A model generated the notes under the pieces. The model searched no databases. It was not told the origin of the DNA and was given only the letters and a program-made list of their open reading frames with translations. A program made the translations under genes and the position numbers. Of a stretch of DNA of 36,388 bases, positions 7,662 through 28,934 are shown piece by piece. Origin of the DNA: a virus; IMG/VR virus record IMGVR_UViG_3300047510_000366, positions 1 to 36,388 of that record; one strand, 5' to 3'. Within the stretch, counting starts at the first letter, position 1. Each line of letters opens with the position of its first letter.

Positions 7662-7951
7662 TTGGTTTCCTTAGGGTCGAAGGTATCATCCAATACCATT
7701 ACGCCGATTAGTCCATAGTTGGCAATGTCAAGCATAGTATCCCGGAGGGATTCAAAGTTTGGATTAACATCGTTGCCTATGATATTAGCTAGTCGTGCTA
7801 CTTTGTCGTGCAGCCTAACTGCTAAACCTACCATCGGACCACCAGGAGCATTCATAATGTTCTTTGGTCCGTAATCATTCTGCTTCTTTACAAGCAGGTC
7901 TAACGCTTCTACCGATGCGTCTAGTGCTCTTTCATTAAAGGGTTTTACCAT
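7658..7951 (-). CDS. Nucleotide modification associated domain 1 (DUF1599-like) protein
   Basis: 97 residues. Family hallmarks are visible: QNDYGPKN (about 25-31), VRLHDKVARL (45-54) and ESLRDTMLDIANYG (67-80). This compact helical family (NMAD1/DUF1599) is frequent in phages and is thought to be linked to nucleotide or DNA-base metabolism, without a settled reaction. The ATG lies in a 7-nt overlap with the sigma-factor gene, preceded by AAGAGG. No DNA-modification gene is visible beside it. Confidence 0.7.
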   Translation of the reverse strand: MVKPFNERALDASVEALDLLVKKQNDYGPKNIMNAPGGPMVGLAVRLHDKVARLANIIGNDVNPNFESLRDTMLDIANYGLIGVMVLDDTFDPKETK

Positions 7952-8553
7952 GGCCTCTTGCCACCTATCTTATTGATGAGAGATTTAATTGCTCGGTCAA
8001 CTCGCTTACGAGTTGCCTCTTCTGTAATGCCTAGAGAATCTCCGAGTTGTTTAAGTGTTCGGGATTCATCCAAGAAGCGAAGTCGAAGTATCTCTTGATG
8101 CTTCTCAGTAAGTAGGTCATAGCCCCTAGAAATGTCAGCCCGCATAGCAAGCCAGTCATTACCAAAAGCAGGGTCCTTCGTGGACCTGGTATTTTCGCCA
8201 TTTGATTTTAGTCCTTCTGGTATCTTGTAATCTTGTGTCAAGATACTCGGAAGGAATATCTCAACCAGATTTCTGTCATAGTAGAATAAGTCGCTAACAT
8301 CGTAACCTATAATCCTAGCTTTTTCTTTTTCGCAAAACTTGAGTGCAGCATTACGGATGGAACGACTTACTAATTTGGTTTCTTCTTTCTTGTCTAGGGT
8401 TTCCCACTCGGATAACTTCCGATCATGGGTTACAAACCATAGCCATATCTCTTGTACAATGTCTTGCTTATCAACCATATGATACTTGCGAGAATACTCG
8501 TAAGCTACATGGTTGACTAAGCTAGACCATTCATTAACTTTTTCTTCGTTCAT
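7945..8553 (-). CDS. Sigma-70-family-like transcription factor
   Basis: 202 residues. A region-2-like helical segment includes KQDIVQEIWLWF (about 29-40). A C-terminal region-4 helix-turn-helix spans about 148-195 (LLTEKHQEILRLRF, then LKQLGDSLGITEEATRKRVDRAI). The middle (about 100-135) is a variable linker. It probably redirects host RNA polymerase to phage promoters. It starts in an ATGA overlap behind AAGGAAGA. The -10-binding residues of classical region 2 are not conserved enough for me to predict its promoter. A pure region-4 regulator is the alternative. Confidence 0.7.
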   Translation of the reverse strand: MNEEKVNEWSSLVNHVAYEYSRKYHMVDKQDIVQEIWLWFVTHDRKLSEWETLDKKEETKLVSRSIRNAALKFCEKEKARIIGYDVSDLFYYDRNLVEIFLPSILTQDYKIPEGLKSNGENTRSTKDPAFGNDWLAMRADISRGYDLLTEKHQEILRLRFLDESRTLKQLGDSLGITEEATRKRVDRAIKSLINKIGGKRPW

Positions 8554-18448: not shown

Positions 18449-18510
18449 TTACCTTTCTTAGTAGAGACTAGGCTTGTCGCTTGCCCAAGCCTAGTCGGTT
18501 TGTGTTGGTT
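18449..18510 (-). promoter_or_regulatory. SAS/ESAS-like leader of the gene at 18446
   Basis: Minus strand: AACCAACACAAAC (18510-18498), then GACTAGGCTTG (18496-18486) perfectly paired with CAAGCCTAGTC (18476-18466) over a 9-nt loop, then TCTACTAAGAAAGGTAAGA and ATG. No U-run follows, so it is not a terminator. Confidence 0.8.
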
Positions 18511-18631
18511 ATCTATTGTCCAAGAGGTACGCAATACCTACTACGATACCGAACAATAGTGCCATTCCTCCAAGTGCGAGGAAGTATGCGACTGGGTCGT
18601 CATTGAAACAAGAAGCGATAACGGATAACAT
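18509..18631 (-). CDS. 40-residue single-span membrane protein
   Basis: ATG 18631 behind CAACAGAAAGGTAGACATT. The product MLSVIASCFNDDPVAYF continues into LALGGMALLFGIVVGIAYLL, one membrane helix, and ends DNR. Short soluble ends on both sides. The stop lies at the edge of the next leader. Function unknown; phage early membrane peptides sometimes block superinfection, which is speculation here. Confidence 0.7.
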   Translation of the reverse strand: MLSVIASCFNDDPVAYFLALGGMALLFGIVVGIAYLLDNR

Positions 18632-18652
18632 AATGTCTACCTTTCTGTTGGA

Positions 18653-18856
18653 TTAGAAGTAAGGTAGAGACTCGTCGTCATCTACCCATTCTAATTCTTT
18701 GTAGTGGCAACCTAGCAATGCTGGTATTTCACAGCACAGAGGCTCGTCTTGCTTATGTGACAAGCAGAAAAAGATTGGTTCTTCGTGGAACTCGCAGTTC
18801 CAAGCGAATGATGCGTGACGGTCATTGCATATGTCACACATAGGTAAAAAGAACAT
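18653..18856 (-). CDS. Cys/His-rich small protein, first gene of the minus arm
   Basis: 67 residues, ATG 18856 behind ACTAAGAAAGGTTACT. Contains CDICNDRH (Cys7, Cys10, His14), later CEFHEEP and FFCLSHKQ, then LCC; a likely zinc-binding fold with two knuckles. Ends in an acidic DDDESLPYF tail. It is the first gene transcribed leftward from the divergent region, so it is probably made earliest. No family recognised. Confidence 0.65.
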   Translation of the reverse strand: MFFLPMCDICNDRHASFAWNCEFHEEPIFFCLSHKQDEPLCCEIPALLGCHYKELEWVDDDESLPYF

Positions 18857-18977
18857 AGTAACCTTTCTTAGTATGATGCCCTAGTGCCTAGGCATAGGCA
18901 TAATTATTATGATTAATAATTACATCCTCCTCCTGATTGCTAAGGCTATGACAAGGTAGAAGTATGCGAAGCCAACT

Positions 18978-19239
18978 CCATTGCGAAGCAATGGTCGGTC
19001 AAGGGTGAAGCCCTTGCGGGGTAAGGGGCAGAGCCCCTGATTATTCCATTGCGTAGCAATGGCGGGGTCAAGGGCGAGTAGTCCTTGTGGGTCAAGGGCA
19101 AAGCCCTGAGGATAGAATTATATAACCTTATCTGTGTCAAGGTAATGTAAATATTCCTACCAAAATACCCTGCCATTCCGGTAAGAATAATTCCTTGGCA
19201 AGGCCAAGAATCGCCGAAGGTCTGCCCTGCATAGCAGGG
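18978..19239. repeat. Array of short 3-nt-loop hairpins
   Basis: Five compact inverted repeats with 3-nt loops: CCATTGC-gaa-GCAATGG (18978-18994), AGGGGC-aga-GCCCCT (19024-19038), CCATTGC-gta-GCAATGG (19046-19062), AGGGC-aaa-GCCCT (19095-19107) and CCCTGC-ata-GCAGGG (19225-19239). Looser ones lie between, such as AAGGG/CCCTT (19001-19015) and CTTGG/CCAAG (19194-19208). The hairpin units are GC-rich against an AT-rich surround, and two share the same CCATTGC arm. Confidence 0.85.
19112..19140 (-). promoter_or_regulatory. Candidate leftward promoter elements
   Basis: On the minus strand TTGACA (19140-19135) is followed, after only 12 nt, by TATAAT (19122-19117). Both match consensus but the spacing is 5 nt too short for a standard sigma-70 promoter. 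With a 17-nt spacer the -10 would be the poor TTCTAT. Transcripts from here would carry most of the hairpin array as a leader. Confidence 0.25.
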
Positions 19240-19321
19240 TATGACCCGAGGTGATTAATGTACCGCAGTAGTAGGTACGTAATCTCATTCATATTTTTTT
19301 GTGGGTTATATGGGTACAAAA

Positions 19322-19376
19322 TAGGACATTTTATAACTATTTTCTGGGACTATAGTCCTATTACCCCCTATAGGAC
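19322..19376. promoter_or_regulatory. Candidate operator: three TAGGAC motifs and a palindrome
   Basis: TAGGAC occurs at 19322-19327 and 19371-19376 on the plus strand and at 19355-19360 on the minus strand. The middle copy abuts the 12-bp perfect palindrome GGACTATAGTCC (19347-19358). Spacing (28 and 10 nt gaps) and symmetry suggest protein binding near the rightward promoter. Confidence 0.4.
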
Positions 19377-19417
19377 GGATTAGTATAAGGTATAAGGTTA
19401 AATATTTATTATTAATA

Positions 19418-19440
19418 ACAAGCCCCTTTAGGGGGCTTGT
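19418..19440. terminator. Terminator-like hairpin upstream of terminase
   Basis: ACAAGCCCC (19418-19426) pairs with GGGGCTTGT (19432-19440) over a 5-nt loop. The minus-strand side continues TTATTAATAATAAATATT, which is U-rich; the plus side continues ATATTATATAATT. It may shield the two arms from each other or act as a leader hairpin for the terminase mRNA. Confidence 0.5.
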
Positions 19441-19525
19441 ATATTATATAATTAATACCTACAGATAGGTGGGCTGTAAGGTATGATTATATTTATGTTT
19501 TATATATCTTTTATTAAGGATCTTT

Positions 19526-21391
19526 ATGTCTTTTAAAAAGGGTGGGGAGCATTGGAAGGCTAAAGCCACCATGGAAGCTAAGGCTTCCGTTATTGAACAA
19601 GTTAGGTCCGGTATAGAACCTTCCGTGGCTGCCACCATAGCTGGTGTCAACCCCAAGCAATTCCGTGATTGGATATACCGAGACAAGAAATTTGCCTTGG
19701 ACCTTGAAGGTGCCCAGTCCGAAGGACAGGTCGTTTTACAAGCTACCCTTGGTGGTGGAAAAATGGACTTTTCGGAATGGTCCGAAATCTTCCTTGAGTC
19801 CAAAGTATTTCCCCACCACCAGTCGTGGGTGGATGTCCTAGAGGGTCGGGAGCCAAGCTGGCTCCACGATTCGATGATCTACGAACCATCCAGCCCCAAG
19901 AGGCTTTTGGTAAATGTTCCTCCAGAGCATGCGAAGTCCTCGGTCATTACGGTAAACTACGTGGTCTACCGACTATGTATGGACCCCAACATTAAGATAG
20001 CAATTGTCTCCCAGACTCAGAAGCGAGCCAAGGAGTTCCTCTTTGCTATCAAGCAGCGATTGACCGAACCTCGGTGGGCAAAGCTTCAGCAGGTTTACGG
20101 ACCCGCCGGTGGCTGGAAAGAGACAGCCGATCAGTGGACCCAAGACCAAATTTACCTCAAGCGTGATTCTGAGGCCAAGGACCCTACGGTCCAAGCCTTG
20201 GGTGTAGGACAGCAGATTTACGGTACTCGTGCCGACCTGATTATCCTAGATGACGTGGTCTCAACAACCAACGCTCACGAATGGGAGAAGCAGCTCAACT
20301 GGCTTCAGAAGATGGTCATCACTCGTTTGGGTGCTGGTAGCCTTATCATCTGTGGAACCCGAGTGGCATCCATAGACCTTTACAAACAGATTCGAAATCC
20401 TGAACATTGGACTTCTGGAAAGTCCCCGTTCACCTACTTGGCAATGCCAGCAGTTCTGCAGTTTGCCGACAAGCCAAAAGACTGGGTAACACTATGGCCC
20501 AAGTCTGACCGTCCTTGGGACGGAACTGATGACCAGCCTGATGAGGACGGTCTTTATCCAAAATGGGACGGACCCACGCTCTATACGAGACGTGGTGAGG
20601 TTTCTGCCGCAACCTGGGCGTTGGTGTACCAACAACAGGATGTTGAGGAAGATGCAATCTTCCCCGTTGCAGCAGTTAGCGGATGCGTTAACAAGATGCG
20701 TAAAGCCGGTCTTATTAACGCTAACGCTCCTGGGCATCCCTCCACTGGTGAGTGGGTGTACTTAATGGGTTTGGATCCAGCCATGTCGGGCAAAACCGCA
20801 GGAATTATGTATGCGTTGGACAGGCAATCTGGAAATCGAATGGTTATTGATGCCTACAATATGGCTGATCCAACCCCCCAAAAGATTAGAGCACTAATTG
20901 AAGACTGGGTAATGAAGTATCGCCCTATGGAATTGCGTATTGAAATCAACGCATTCCAAAAAGCCTTCTCTTTAGATGAAGAATTACGCAATTGGTTGGC
21001 ATCTCGTGGTACACAACTGCGTGAACACTTTACTGGTAAGAACAAATGGGACACTAACTTCGGTGTAGCCTCTATGTCTGGACTGTTTGGAACAGTCAGA
21101 GAAGGTAAACACCAACGAGATAACCTAATTAGCTTGCCAGACCACGAAAACAACGAGCACATTAAAGCTTTAATTAACCAATTAATCACTTGGAAGCCTG
21201 ATACTAGGAATCCAACCGACTTAGTTATGGCTCTTTGGTTTTGTGAGATTAGAGCACAAGAGATGATGAGGCAAGGAACTTTCCTTCAGACTCACGCTAA
21301 TAACAAATGGTCTACAAGAAGAAACAAATTTGATCGTGGAGTCATAAATCTTGACGATTTGGCTACCGAGCAATACACATATTATGCATAA
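19526..21391 (+). CDS. terL: Terminase large subunit with N-terminal helix-turn-helix
   Basis: 621 residues. An N-terminal helical segment (about 15-65; SVIEQVRSGIEPSVAATIAG then NPKQFRDWIYRDKKF) resembles the helix-turn-helix of small terminase subunits. The ATPase follows: Walker A variant VNVPPEHAKSS (129-139), Walker B DLIILDD (237-243) and a C-motif-like LIICGTR (273-279). The RNase H-like nuclease has GLDPAMSG (Asp417), LRIEIN (Glu473) and a late DLVMALW Asp. It cuts and pumps DNA into the prohead. No separate small subunit is seen. GC content drops sharply inside the gene near 20800-20880. ATG is preceded by AAGGATC. Confidence 0.95.
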   Translation: MSFKKGGEHWKAKATMEAKASVIEQVRSGIEPSVAATIAGVNPKQFRDWIYRDKKFALDLEGAQSEGQVVLQATLGGGKMDFSEWSEIFLESKVFPHHQSWVDVLEGREPSWLHDSMIYEPSSPKRLLVNVPPEHAKSSVITVNYVVYRLCMDPNIKIAIVSQTQKRAKEFLFAIKQRLTEPRWAKLQQVYGPAGGWKETADQWTQDQIYLKRDSEAKDPTVQALGVGQQIYGTRADLIILDDVVSTTNAHEWEKQLNWLQKMVITRLGAGSLIICGTRVASIDLYKQIRNPEHWTSGKSPFTYLAMPAVLQFADKPKDWVTLWPKSDRPWDGTDDQPDEDGLYPKWDGPTLYTRRGEVSAATWALVYQQQDVEEDAIFPVAAVSGCVNKMRKAGLINANAPGHPSTGEWVYLMGLDPAMSGKTAGIMYALDRQSGNRMVIDAYNMADPTPQKIRALIEDWVMKYRPMELRIEINAFQKAFSLDEELRNWLASRGTQLREHFTGKNKWDTNFGVASMSGLFGTVREGKHQRDNLISLPDHENNEHIKALINQLITWKPDTRNPTDLVMALWFCEIRAQEMMRQGTFLQTHANNKWSTRRNKFDRGVINLDDLATEQYTYYA

Positions 21392-23420: not shown

Positions 23421-23841
23421 AGGCGGATACCGTAAACCAGCTAATCCTGCTCCTGTATCTGGTCCTGGAGAATTATCTCGTAGAACCGATGGTGCACAAC
23501 CAGCAATGGAAATGACTGGTGGAACTTATGGTGAGAATCAAGAGTTAATGGACTTACAAACTTCTGCACCTATGGCACAGGTTGAAACAAATCCTGCTAC
23601 AGCAGTAGAAGAAGCACCAATGGGTATGCCACCTGTTACCCCGTTGTTTGCACCGAGTGCAAGACCAGAAGAACCAGCAACTGCTGGTATGCCATTTGGT
23701 CCTGGTGAAATGTCAATGCCAAATATGCCAGTTAAAGGTGACCAACCAATTAGAGAATTATTACTTCGTGGAATTCAATCTTCGAATGATCCAGAACTTG
23801 AATACGTTTATGCTAGGCTTTCTGAAAGAGGTCTGATTTAA
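23410..23841 (+). CDS. Pro/Met-rich virion-associated protein
   Basis: 143 residues, ATG 23410 behind AGAGGAAGTAGAAG. Residues 1-110 are low-complexity and disordered (Pro, Gly, Met, Ala; e.g. GMPFGPGEMSMPNMP). The final 30 residues form a helical domain with NDPELEYVYARLSERGLI. Similar disordered sequence ends the portal, which may reflect shared interaction partners. The TAA overlaps the next ATG. Confidence 0.65.
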   Translation: MASRGGYRKPANPAPVSGPGELSRRTDGAQPAMEMTGGTYGENQELMDLQTSAPMAQVETNPATAVEEAPMGMPPVTPLFAPSARPEEPATAGMPFGPGEMSMPNMPVKGDQPIRELLLRGIQSSNDPELEYVYARLSERGLI

Positions 23842-26800
23842 TGTCAGATGATATTCTATCTTTAGAGGAACGCCTTACTGATCCTTTGTGGGATGCAGTT
23901 TCGGAAAATCTCTACACTACTCAAGAAAAGCAAAAGCTTAAAAGCCTAAAGAAATTTGCTCGTTTAGATAAGAAATTATCTGAAATGGGTGAAAATGGTT
24001 ATGATCGTTTTTCTAAACTTGATGTTAATATTCAAGATGGGTTACGTTGGTTTAATTCTGGACAAGAAGCAGTGTATATGAAGGCACCTTCTGCTTGGTG
24101 GCAAACAGCTGGTAGAGCTGCACTTTCTGGTGTTTTAAATTTTAACCCTTTAGGTACTGCTTACAACTTAGCTGTTCAGTATGGAAATCTTCTTAATACT
24201 GGTTTAAACACCATGATGCAAGTTGCCGAAAATGATAAATCATTTTTAGATATGGACGTATGGGCTAATTCGTGGTCTAATGGTGAAAGTTTATACAATC
24301 AAGAACTAGATAAAAAACTACAAGAAAAACATGGAAAGATAAGATCCTTTATTGCTAAGCAACATCTTGCTGGTAAAACAAGAGCTGAGATGATTGCAAA
24401 TTATTCTAATTCGTTTTCTCAAGAATTTATTAACGAACTAATTGATTTTAGCAATAATGAAAAACAATGGGAAAACGGAATCCTTGAGGATTACCGACAA
24501 GCAAAGTTATCTCCTGGACGGTATATTGCAAGAAGGCTTGTAGGAATTCGTGGCGAAGATGAAACTGGTTTTGGTTTAGGTGGTTTTCGATTCGGTTCAC
24601 CTATGGCTGCATCTCAAGAAGCAGAAGACATACGAACTGGTAAAAAGAAGTTAACCAAAAAAGAAAAAGATTTAATGTTTACCCGGGTATCTGGATTTAC
24701 AGATGCTACTGCTCAGATATTTGCAGATCCTTTAACTTATGTAACTTTTGGAGTTGGAGCAGGTGTTCGCTTTTTTGGTAAAGGTGTATCTGAAACCTCA
24801 CGAGTAATTGATCTTGCATCAAAAGGTACAGCAGGAATTAGAAAAGCTTTTAAAATTAGCCCTAAACTTCGTAAGACTTGGGATGACTATGGTGCTTTAG
24901 TAGAGCAATACAGTAATGCAAGTAAAGCTGGAAACATAGATGAAGTAAATAGAATTGTTCAAGAAATTAGAATTAAGTTCCCAGAGTTTTCTGCTGATGA
25001 AGTTATTAAGTTTAATGCTGACGGAAAAGTATTTAATGCACAAAGAGCATCTGATTTTTATTCAGATGTAGACAGGGCAGGCAGATTGCTTACTGGCAAT
25101 CTTAGTGGTACGGATTTCTTTAGAGATGCAATTGTTGTGCATCGTGCTAATCGTGGTGCTGTAGATGCTGCTAGAAGAGTTTGGTATAATCTTGGCTCCC
25201 AAGAAGGTGTTACTGCTAAAGAAGCAAAGATGAGTCTTGATGAATTGGCTGCTTATGGCGAAGATATTGGATTTGCCAAAACATTAGATGATACTCAATT
25301 TGCAGAATACACTAAAGAACGTAAACGATTCATAAAAAGATTAACAGCAGTCCTTTCTCGTTCCCCTGGAAACCAGCCAATTAAAGTTGGAGAAGATGCA
25401 ATCGATACGATTGATACCGTACGATTCCTGTTTAGATCTGTTGTAACTCGAAATGTTGCTGACATATCTGCACAGTTATTTTTGCAGTTAAACAAAGCAG
25501 AACAGATTAGTGTACTTCGTGGACTGTATCGCAGTGTTATGGAATCCTATGGTGTTCCAGAAGCTGAAATTGGTGAGATTCTTGGTAAGCGATTTGGTTC
25601 TGAAGATGAAACTCTTTCTATTGCAGGCAACCTAAAAGATCCACATACTGGATTGCCAATTGAATATGGTGGTGCCGGTATTGATAGAGACTTAAGAAGT
25701 GTTATTGCAAACCTTCCTTGGGAACATATTCAAAAGGCTTCAGCTAACGCTGCTCTTGGCAGCGGTGGTGAAACAGGTAGATATAAGTTACGAGTTTTTA
25801 ATCTACTTGGTGGTGCATCAAACAATAGTGCAGTATCTGCCATAACTCGTGGATGGTCATTAGGTACACTGTTTCCAAAGCTGGGTATTAGAGCATCTAT
25901 TGATGAAGCATTTTTCTTTTCTATTACTGCTCCAGGATATGTACTTAAGCAGTACTTTTCTGCACTTAAAGCAAGTAAGATTGCTACAGCAGCTTCTAGC
26001 GATAAAGTATCACAAGGTGTGGTTGCGGGACTATTTAGAAAAGTTGCATCTAAAACAACAGGTATTAAAAGATTTGATCCAGTAAATCTTCTGAGCAAAG
26101 AAGTACGAGCACGAATCAGAGAACGAGTAATGCTCGATGCCGAGAAGTTTGGCTGGACAGAAAATCAAACATATGAAGTTCTTAAGATTGCATTTGTTGA
26201 TGAAGCAATCAATGAGATTGGCACACTAGGATTATCTGCACAGAAGATTGACGATCTTCGTCAACTTCTAGTGCATAACGTTTCATTCCTTAATGCTGCT
26301 AGTTCTACAGCAGCTAGAGCAACAGCTACTGGTGGAGTAGTTGATGATATAAGCAAGATTGCAATTCTAGACGATATTGCAATGGCTAAAATGATTGATG
26401 ACTTTAATGTTGAGTTCGGTGAAGTATTTAAAGAAGTAGACCCATCTAGGTTCAAAAAGAATTCAATTGTTGTTCCAATGTTTTATAGCTTTAATAGATT
26501 CTTTAAGAATAACAAGCTTGGAGATATTGATCTTGGCGAAGTATTTGTAAAGCACAATGGTTTAAGAACTGAAGATGATTGGAAAAATGCAACTGACGAA
26601 GTCATTAACGCATTAGATGATAAACAAAAAGCTTATATCATTAGTGAACGTTCTCAGCTTCAGCCACAAGTAAAAGCTGGAATGTCTAACGATGCAATCA
26701 TAAGAGATACCTTGCTTAAGAGAATCTTTTCTGATATGTACTTTGTGTTTCATGGAACCGATAAGTCTGTAGCTAGAGGTGGTTCATTCAACAATCAGTT

Positions 26801-28934
26801 ATTGCAACACTTCCAGAATGGAAGACAACTAGGTTATTCCCACGATGATATTGCAAGATTAGATTTTGAAGAATACTTTGACTTGGTTCAAGGGCATACG
26901 TATGATCGTAAGTTCCGTACCAATATTAGTCAGATGCAAGACTTTCAAAATACTCCAGATAAGTGGCAAAAGCTAATTACTTTTGAGAATTCTATTTGGG
27001 AAATGATGGATAGAACCGTAAACGGTTTTGTTCGTCAAAAGGGTGTTCTTATGTGGTACTTTGCACGACGAGAAAAGTATCGTGCATTTGAATCTGAATA
27101 TACCCAAAAGGTATTTGATGGTTTAACAGGCAATGCTTTTAGATATAGCGATGTTGTTGCTAATCCAAACAAGTATGATAATAAGGTTAAAACAGCATTG
27201 CTTAGAGCGCAGACTATGACTGAAAAGTTTTATACTGAAGCTGCATTAAACGATGCAATTAACAATACCTTAAAGTATGTTGATAATCCAAACGTTCGCA
27301 CATACTTGGCATCTAGCGTAAAGAATGTAAACCGATTCTATCGAGCAATTGAAGACTTTTATCGTAGGGTATACCGACTAAAGAATGTAAGTACTCGTGT
27401 TCTTTATCGTATGCGATTAATGAATCTTGGACTAAACAATGCTGGTATTGTCCATACCGATGATGAAGGCGTACAGTACTACACAATTCCAATTGATAAT
27501 ATTATTTACGCAGCAATCAATCCAGTATTAACTAAACTTTCTGGCGGAAATACAGAGATGTTACAGCCTAAGTTTCTTGAAACTACAGGTAAGATTATTG
27601 GATTAAATCCTTCCTTCCAAGATTCTGGTGGTATTCCATACCTCAGTGGACCTATGGCAAGCATTGGAACACTAGGACTTAAGGCTATTGCCGGTAGAGT
27701 ATTTGAAACATCTCCTTGGGTAGAGGATATTGATAACGTTCTTCTTGGAGATATTGGTGATGATATTGATGTTTACAAAGCTGTTACTCCTGCTTTTCTT
27801 CAACGAGTATTCAAAGCTTTAGACAGAGATGAAAATGCTCGTCATAACCATAGTGCAGTTCTACAGGCAATTGCCTTTAACGCTGCCTTTGACGGAATGA
27901 ATCATCCAGGTATGAGTCCAAATGCAACCAATAGACAAAAGCAAGAGTATCTTGATATTGTTCGCATTGGTGCTCACAACATTCAAACAGCAAATGCTCT
28001 GCTTGGATTGGTATGGCCTTCAAGCGTAAGCTTGCAAGAAAGCACCAATATGCAAGATTACTTACGAGATACTGGAAGTACGAACATCCGTAGTGAGTTC
28101 TTTGAACTATATGATGCAATAGTTAAGAAGTATGGAGATGATGTTTCTGATCCATACCAGCTAGCTATCGCTATGTTTGTTGGACAAAATCCAAACAAGC
28201 TTATTTACACAGCATCTCGTGAAGATAAAGCAGTTAAGCCATTACTTCGTAAGACTGAAGAAGTTAGAGATTGGTTGATTGCTAACAAAGCATTTGTCAA
28301 AAAGTACGGAGAAGCATCATATCTATTTGCTCCCCAAACTGAAGGAAAGATTAATCCTTCTGTCTATAACTGGATGAGTGCTGCTGGTCTAGCAGATAGT
28401 GTTGAAGTTAAAGACTATTTAGATACAATTAACATCCTACAGGTTAAGTCTAGATTCTTTCAAATATCTAAAAACCTTGAAGATAAACTTGATAAGGTTG
28501 CAGATTACTCAGAAAGAAAACTTCTTATAGAAAATGCAGAAAACAAAAGAGCAATGATGAAGGCTGCATATCCACTACTTGCCGAACAACTTGGTGAGAA
28601 CGGTGAATTTACTGTTGAGTGGGAAAAGGGAGTGTTAAGAGATCTTGAGGAATTGGTCAACGACAATACAACACCAGTTCCTGCAACTCAAAGAAAATTC
28701 TTAAAGCAAATGATTAATATATTTAATAGTGGATATTCAACATTAAATATATCTTACAGTAATGATGATGCTTATTATGCAATTAAGTATTCAGCAAAAG
28801 AAAGAATGGTAAAAGAACTTACAGCAATTGCTGGTAATAGTCCTTTCCTTAAGCAAATAAACGATTTGGTATTCTTCTCATTGATTGACTTTAAAGCAAG
28901 AGATACCTTTAGAACAACCCCATACGGAAGGTAA
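23841..28934 (+). CDS. Giant virion protein, probable internal/ejection protein
   Basis: 1697 residues, the longest gene of the window (14% of it), starting in a TAATG overlap. Mostly helical and Lys/Asn/Asp-rich, with several amphipathic or hydrophobic stretches (for example ALSGVLNFNPLGTAYNLAV about 93-111, DPLTYVTFGVGAGVRFFGKG about 297-316, and IRASIDEAFFFSITAPGYVL near 680). I see no peptidase, transglycosylase or polymerase motif. Its place between portal and scaffold and its size fit a core/ejection protein delivered with the DNA; a tape-measure-like role is the alternative. Confidence 0.6.
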   Translation: MSDDILSLEERLTDPLWDAVSENLYTTQEKQKLKSLKKFARLDKKLSEMGENGYDRFSKLDVNIQDGLRWFNSGQEAVYMKAPSAWWQTAGRAALSGVLNFNPLGTAYNLAVQYGNLLNTGLNTMMQVAENDKSFLDMDVWANSWSNGESLYNQELDKKLQEKHGKIRSFIAKQHLAGKTRAEMIANYSNSFSQEFINELIDFSNNEKQWENGILEDYRQAKLSPGRYIARRLVGIRGEDETGFGLGGFRFGSPMAASQEAEDIRTGKKKLTKKEKDLMFTRVSGFTDATAQIFADPLTYVTFGVGAGVRFFGKGVSETSRVIDLASKGTAGIRKAFKISPKLRKTWDDYGALVEQYSNASKAGNIDEVNRIVQEIRIKFPEFSADEVIKFNADGKVFNAQRASDFYSDVDRAGRLLTGNLSGTDFFRDAIVVHRANRGAVDAARRVWYNLGSQEGVTAKEAKMSLDELAAYGEDIGFAKTLDDTQFAEYTKERKRFIKRLTAVLSRSPGNQPIKVGEDAIDTIDTVRFLFRSVVTRNVADISAQLFLQLNKAEQISVLRGLYRSVMESYGVPEAEIGEILGKRFGSEDETLSIAGNLKDPHTGLPIEYGGAGIDRDLRSVIANLPWEHIQKASANAALGSGGETGRYKLRVFNLLGGASNNSAVSAITRGWSLGTLFPKLGIRASIDEAFFFSITAPGYVLKQYFSALKASKIATAASSDKVSQGVVAGLFRKVASKTTGIKRFDPVNLLSKEVRARIRERVMLDAEKFGWTENQTYEVLKIAFVDEAINEIGTLGLSAQKIDDLRQLLVHNVSFLNAASSTAARATATGGVVDDISKIAILDDIAMAKMIDDFNVEFGEVFKEVDPSRFKKNSIVVPMFYSFNRFFKNNKLGDIDLGEVFVKHNGLRTEDDWKNATDEVINALDDKQKAYIISERSQLQPQVKAGMSNDAIIRDTLLKRIFSDMYFVFHGTDKSVARGGSFNNQLLQHFQNGRQLGYSHDDIARLDFEEYFDLVQGHTYDRKFRTNISQMQDFQNTPDKWQKLITFENSIWEMMDRTVNGFVRQKGVLMWYFARREKYRAFESEYTQKVFDGLTGNAFRYSDVVANPNKYDNKVKTALLRAQTMTEKFYTEAALNDAINNTLKYVDNPNVRTYLASSVKNVNRFYRAIEDFYRRVYRLKNVSTRVLYRMRLMNLGLNNAGIVHTDDEGVQYYTIPIDNIIYAAINPVLTKLSGGNTEMLQPKFLETTGKIIGLNPSFQDSGGIPYLSGPMASIGTLGLKAIAGRVFETSPWVEDIDNVLLGDIGDDIDVYKAVTPAFLQRVFKALDRDENARHNHSAVLQAIAFNAAFDGMNHPGMSPNATNRQKQEYLDIVRIGAHNIQTANALLGLVWPSSVSLQESTNMQDYLRDTGSTNIRSEFFELYDAIVKKYGDDVSDPYQLAIAMFVGQNPNKLIYTASREDKAVKPLLRKTEEVRDWLIANKAFVKKYGEASYLFAPQTEGKINPSVYNWMSAAGLADSVEVKDYLDTINILQVKSRFFQISKNLEDKLDKVADYSERKLLIENAENKRAMMKAAYPLLAEQLGENGEFTVEWEKGVLRDLEELVNDNTTPVPATQRKFLKQMINIFNSGYSTLNISYSNDDAYYAIKYSAKERMVKELTAIAGNSPFLKQINDLVFFSLIDFKARDTFRTTPYGR

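Follow-up and report, generated by a model that had tools for sequence, protein, structure and literature searches.

The window, a virus record of 36,388 bases analysed as a whole, carries a hairpin array at 18978-19239, and gene orientation switches at this region (Table 1). The original prediction placed the array beside the terminase, and the gene of the terminase large subunit (TerL) does start at 19526 on the plus strand; the closest leftward open reading frame clear of the array lies at 18653-18856. A 76-aa reading frame at 18946-19176 on the minus strand was rejected as protein-coding because it is interrupted by an indel seen in the relative L003. The array region shows no nucleotide similarity to phage records, and a second IMG/VR contig holds an identical copy of it (646/646 bases). 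Elsewhere in the window, 7945-8553 (minus strand) encodes a sigma-factor-like protein (PHROG 354, E 7.7e-17) and 23841-28934 (plus strand) a 1697-aa protein, between the portal and major capsid genes, which has no significant Pfam or PHROG match.

Table 1. Features of the array region and its flanks, in window positions.
Feature	Position	Strand	Basis
Predicted direct terminal repeat, ~329 bp, left edge uncertain	18954..19282		edge homology to Beephvirinae repeat ends and metagenomic relatives
150-nt block missing in nearest relative L003 (3 other nt there)	18961..19110		blastn blocks
Hairpin A, CCATTGC-GAA-GCAATGG	18978..18994		hairpin scan
Hairpin B, CAAGGG-TGAAG-CCCTTG	19000..19016		hairpin scan, loop 3-5
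Hairpin C, AGGGGC-AGA-GCCCCT	19024..19038		hairpin scan
Hairpin A', CCATTGC-GTA-GCAATGG	19046..19062		repeat search and hairpin scan
Imperfect hairpin B', CAAGGGCGAGTAGTCCTTG	19069..19087		read directly off the sequence
Hairpin C', AGGGC-AAA-GCCCT	19095..19107		hairpin scan
Hairpin D, CTTGGC-AAG-GCCAAG, outside the indel	19194..19208		hairpin scan
Hairpin E, CCCTGC-ATA-GCAGGG, adjoins the end motif	19225..19239		hairpin scan
End motif GACCCGAGGTGATTAA, candidate terminase signal	19243..19258	+	motif survey, 40 nt before junction block
Right junction block CGTAATCTCATTCATATTTTTTTGT, predicted cut near 19282	19278..19304	+	comparison with relatives
Terminase large subunit (TerL) gene	19526..21391	+	PHROG 38, E 2.4e-62

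Six hairpins of the array have a perfect stem of 5 bp or more and a 3-nt loop, where 0.28 are expected (2000 dinucleotide shuffles of the array region, maximum 3). The original prediction, which announced at least five perfect stems of 5-7 bp with such loops, therefore described a real feature. Stems of at least 6 bp are found in five of the six hairpins when the whole window is listed; the regional count of these longer stems is four, in a range that ends before the last one, compared to 0.08 in shuffles (maximum 2). The whole window has 39 3-nt-loop stems of at least 6 bp (11.4 in shuffles), so that a mild enrichment exists outside the array too.

Two of the hairpins, A and A', had been noted for their common CCATTGC arm. 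They belong to the two halves of a diverged tandem duplication, A-B-C (18978-19038) and A'-B'-C' (19046-19107), in which A and A' are spaced by 68 nt, and of which units B and the imperfect B' are additional to those first described. Between C (GGGGC-AGA-GCCCC) and C' (AGGGC-AAA-GCCCT), a G-C pair is replaced by an A-T pair, as read from the sequence. The unit of hairpin A occurs twice in the record, both times in the array (repeats were sought within 18500-19800). A tandem A pair is found elsewhere only in L093, a phage almost identical to this one (99.9% over 1901 nt). The idea that hairpin A has mobile copies was dropped, as CCATTGCGNAGCAATGG has 15 matches in viral_contigs, about the number estimated by chance; the pattern GACGGATTAGTATA, with 102 matches, is also near chance expectation and was set aside.

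Close relatives differ in the array. L003, whose TerL is 100% identical, lacks the 150-nt block and aligns with the window at 97% and 96% on either side of it. This insertion holds every hairpin from A to C', six units including the imperfect one; D and E lie outside the indel and are degenerate in L003. At the position of E, L005 has a different hairpin, GCCTGC-CATA-GCAGGC. Since L003 is devoid of most of the array, the array is not essential, and since hairpins differ between relatives, it is not the array as such that is conserved. The original prediction made the presence of the array at the same place in related phages its touchstone: its particular hairpins do not stand up to this comparison, but the richness in hairpins at the site does, as described below.

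The closest annotated phages, as judged solely from the TerL comparison, are Streptomyces podophages of the Beephvirinae (about 46% identity over 96-97% of the protein); the TerL of an unannotated record, ct2KA10, is 56% identical. Comparison of both record ends shows that the four Beephvirinae records all have exact direct terminal repeats just upstream of TerL, which starts at 624-679. The repeats measure 253 bp in FlowerPower, 264 in WRightOn, 275 in Immanuel3 and 396 in Abafar, whose record covers the homologous region with shifted ends. Direct terminal repeats of 253 bp are reported for FlowerPower and its sisters (PMC9753666). In WRightOn and Immanuel3, GACCCGGGGGTTGTTAA begins 40 nt before the repeat end and AGTCCC comes right after the repeat; FlowerPower has the variant TACCCCGGGGTTGTTAA at the position of GACCCGGGGGTTGTTAA. 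The left ends of the FlowerPower and Immanuel3 repeats read ACA|GTCCC. No terminal repeat was found in the ct2KA10 record, which carries the form TTGACCCCAGAGTGTTTAA of the end motif.

The window resembles these phages in its TerL homology, in the late genes running rightward from TerL with leftward genes at the opposite end, and in a GACCC..TTAA motif located 40 nt from the repeat end, a predicted end in the window, and followed by AGTC. It differs from them in its hairpins, which are few in the Beephvirinae repeats: WRightOn and Abafar have one 7-bp stem with a 3-nt loop, the Immanuel3 repeat has one palindrome as opposed to the array of the window, and FlowerPower has no qualifying hairpin beside its end motif.

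The same arrangement is found in metagenomic phages. A search for TerL relatives in IMG/VR returned 161 loci, of which 80 were kept, and the motif survey used hand-listed upstream DNA from part of these. The motif lies about 260-320 nt upstream of TerL; about 40 nt further on comes a block of the TACTGTAGA|GTC type and then an AT-rich run. Of the 64 sequences that extend 330 nt or more upstream of TerL, 53, the window included, have the motif under a loose rule, at -258 to -317. Inspection by eye shows variants in 10 of the remaining 11; the exception is L037, where no variant was seen in the upstream stretch inspected. With a strict pattern, 14/28 records have a single occurrence each, compared to 0 for a reversed-pattern control. 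On the left side, a junction like AGACA|GTC has a candidate in 41/52 sequences with the right motif, under a rule drawn up after inspection of the sequences; four of the 11 others begin too close to contain it.

In the window, the position of the motif implies that a repeat should end near 19282. The left junction, TGACA|AGGTAG, is only a partial match to the AGACA|GTC of the relatives and was placed by means of L003 and L005, so the left end near 18954, which depends on a short motif, is the weaker of the two edge assignments. With both predicted edges, the whole array falls inside the predicted repeat. It is thus probable, from sequence comparison, that the genome is a linear, actinophage-like one whose direct terminal repeat corresponds to the array region; this region occurs once in the assembled window contig. 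The original prediction had suggested a packaging (pac/cos) site, a replication origin or a structured leader RNA. For the first of these the neighbourhood was right, the array lying in a predicted repeat with a family-wide motif next to it. What is conserved, however, is this adjoining motif and not the hairpins, which vary from one relative to the next.

Several contig ends were looked at in this respect. The L058 contig (1-7, GTCAACC) begins exactly at the predicted left junction, and those of L005 and L009 begin within about 11 nt of it. Contig ends were nevertheless rejected as physical ends: ends upstream of TerL are common but scattered, and these three are too few as proof. The end overlaps of G017 and G022 (139 and 216 bp) were rejected as repeats, for their position is upstream of the predicted one and they have the appearance of circular assembly, and the meeting point of L093 and L102 at 19208/19209 is a storage boundary rather than a contig end.

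The hairpin content of the site was then compared across the family, with a filter requiring a stem of at least 5 bp, a loop of 3-5 nt and at least 3 G/C in the arm. The count uses 23 nonredundant sequences out of the 41 with both junction candidates, themselves from the 52 with the right motif. These 23 predicted repeats contain 38 hairpins, compared to 4.3 in shuffles (maximum 9), and 31 compared to 3.8 when the window is removed. At least one hairpin is present in 17 of the 23; the predicted repeats of L003, L022, L052, L063, L065 and L077 have none passing the filter. Per kb, the predicted repeat has 11.2 hairpins, the TerL leader 5.3 and the TerL coding sequence 3.4; the last two also exceed their own shuffles.

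The position of the hairpins relative to the motif was determined for 34 nonredundant sequences out of 53. The excess runs upstream of the motif, peaks at -60 to -41 (13/34) and extends to +39. From +40 to +99, just beyond the predicted repeat end, every 20-nt bin has hairpins in 0/34 sequences. Further clusters appear at +100 to +119 and near the TerL start. Relatives carry different hairpins at the predicted repeat, so the ability to fold seems more important than the exact letters.

In L076, L078 and L081, 4/15 pairs, in three hairpins, are changed on both sides, and 44/45 cells are paired; this level of covariation, a formal count made on three sequences only, is reached by 6/500 shuffles. 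Hairpins at about the same place in other relatives have GTTGCC/GGCAAC, GTCACC/GGTGAC or GGCATC/GATGCC stems. Double-sided changes can also be produced by template switching, without selection. It is possible, although doubtful, that the family retains a hairpin-rich terminal repeat through its structure and not its sequence, and that this structure is required for repeat copying or end maturation. The accompanying proposal, that lineage-specific hairpin sets are renewed by duplication, insertion and paired substitution, is held with the same reserve.

The most serious alternative, and a plausible one even if we do not favour it, is that the hairpins are REP-like or template-switch palindromes which accumulate without function in a tolerant non-coding repeat. 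The 150-nt block is a lineage-specific indel, and units B and C resemble palindromes of unrelated bacteria (Planctomycetaceae, Clostridia, Gluconacetobacter). Among the matches listed (loci L256-L360 only), 89/118 GGTCAAGGGYRAAGCCCT sites complete a 6-bp stem, compared to 7.4 expected, and 26 of these 89 have a second hairpin at most 45 nt away, compared to 76/1050 random positions; many of the sites come from one Planctomycetaceae assembly and are therefore not independent. The bacterial tandem mini-hairpins, GGTCAAGGG-NNAA-CCCTTG, to which we apply "REP-like" as our own label and not as the name of a family, are similar to B and C in sequence and in tandem arrangement. They differ from the units of the window, which sit in a predicted phage terminal repeat and only in the array; no palindrome dispersed in many copies was found by the repeat search over 18500-19800, and many copies were seen only in other genomes. 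In the Planctomycetaceae assembly mentioned above (L267-L346, contigs CALFSX01...), the palindrome GGTCAAGGGCGAAGCCCTTGTT is present in many copies with a shared CCACGCCA-type context before it, looking like a dispersed repeat family.

Template switching, which can create and maintain hairpins (PMC8794818), may have left a trace in the relatives: GTTGCG-TTAT-CGCAAC (L020:5679-5694) and GTTGCG-ATAA-CGCAAC (L030:5679-5694, L042:4095-4110) have identical arms and reverse-complement loops, which suggests inversion of a hairpin by this process. Palindromes without function do not readily explain why the excess recurs in most of the predicted repeats and ends where the repeat is predicted to end, instead of filling the intergenic region. 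They also fit poorly with the preference for a C-G closing pair, found in 26/38 hairpins, as expected for stable single-strand loops.

Another reading, which we consider unlikely, is that the region separating the divergent early and late operons holds a structured leader RNA, an attenuator or terminators to which the hairpins belong. Four terminator-like sites are found in 18850-19560, compared to 0.7 in shuffles, two of them on the minus strand at 19152-19210. The loops are rich in A on the plus strand (69 A vs 34 T), and RNA folding gives an average z of about -1.6. This folding is about equal on both strands, however, and DNA parameters give a mean z that is no higher; moreover, most hairpins lack a T tract. 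The window has 0 covariance-model matches to Rfam families above the gathering score, and no sigma-70-like promoter was found in the region, in a scan restricted to this type of promoter. The double compensations of L076, L078 and L081 are without G-U intermediates, in these three sequences only.

Two other elements were noticed upstream of TerL. A second conserved box of the TerL leader, at about 19374-19397, reads GGGGTTAGTATAAGTGTAGG in relatives and GACGGATTAGTATAAGGTATAAGG in the window, and is possibly a late promoter. A conserved 7-bp hairpin at about -37 from TerL is present in L052, L058, L061, L063, L066, L077, L081 and other relatives, with arms and loops exchanged between variants (TAATACT-AAT-AGTATTA, TAATAGT-ATT-ACTATTA and TAATAGT-AAT-ACTATTA); it was not seen in the window.

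A replication origin with hairpin-initiated replication, very improbable in our view as the main explanation, would agree with the cumulative GC skew, which reaches its minimum at 18-19 kb and its maximum near 6.5 kb. Gene orientation, however, changes where the skew does, so that an effect of replication on the skew cannot be told from one of transcription; end-primed replication of the N4 type would overlap with the explanation that we prefer. The hairpins have in addition the anatomy of the single-stranded DNA promoters which serve the injected RNA polymerase of N4 and have a 3-nt loop with a sheared G:A pair: their stems are of 5-7 bp with 3-nt loops, and C-GNA-G loops are present in A, A' and relatives. 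Hairpins with 3-nt loops are described for N4 promoters (PMC4496689). Promoters of this kind are nonetheless the least credible explanation considered, and hardly to be expected here. The 1697-aa protein, considered as an N4-like polymerase, was rejected, having no match to RNA polymerase families, and the phage carries a sigma-factor-like gene. PF00940 had no match in the six frames of the record either, a weak argument since the search controls gave none.

The explanation that we retain, tentatively and with somewhat less than even confidence, is that the array lies inside a short direct repeat of a linear podovirus-like genome and that its hairpins aid the processing of this repeat. A more fragile part of this proposal, drawn only by analogy, is that they work as DNA structures while the repeat is copied or matured; yet from our analysis this appears somewhat likelier than any single alternative. 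The proposal goes beyond what the sequences show directly: the array with its 150-nt indel, the conservation of the motif, an excess of hairpins across the family and compensatory changes in one trio.

According to this model of hairpin-aided processing, each concatemer junction would hold one copy of the repeat. The terminase would recognise GACCC-nnnGTnnTTAA and cut about 40 nt downstream, and the repeat would be copied, so that both ends of each virion genome would carry it. The hairpins would fold, either at the end or in the displaced strand, when supercoiling or a single-stranded state of the repeat allows it. Once folded, they may prime the copying of the repeat or make it stall, keep the maturation complex in place, or shield the end. 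The letters of the stems would be free to vary as long as pairing is retained, which would give each lineage its own set of hairpins. In the lineage of the window, a 150-nt block of REP-like mini-hairpins would have been inserted just inside the left end.

Elements of this model have counterparts in well-studied phages. The T7 genome has a short fixed repeat at both ends, as is proposed here, but differs from the window, where many small hairpins lie inside the predicted repeat; a hairpin end on T7 concatemers was reportedly described by Chung et al. in 1990. To our knowledge, the duplication of a repeat during packaging is documented mainly in a few model phages such as T7. N4 has direct terminal repeats with inverted repeats, like the repeat proposed for the window, and hairpin priming at its end is reported (PMC3896407); its small 3-nt-loop DNA hairpins form in vivo (PMC4496689). 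Unlike in N4, the searches described above found no virion RNA polymerase. In the literature covered, mostly titles and abstract openings, we recognised no study of hairpins in the terminal repeats of these phages.

The motif is shared by Streptomyces isolates and metagenomic phages alike; the hairpins next to it change from phage to phage and yet remain paired. These phages form a natural series, which would make it possible to test whether DNA hairpins take part in the duplication of the repeat. The end motif could also be used to place genome ends in metagenomic contigs devoid of end data. If the repeat is indeed kept for its structure, it would be a fast-evolving packaging element, coded by structure.
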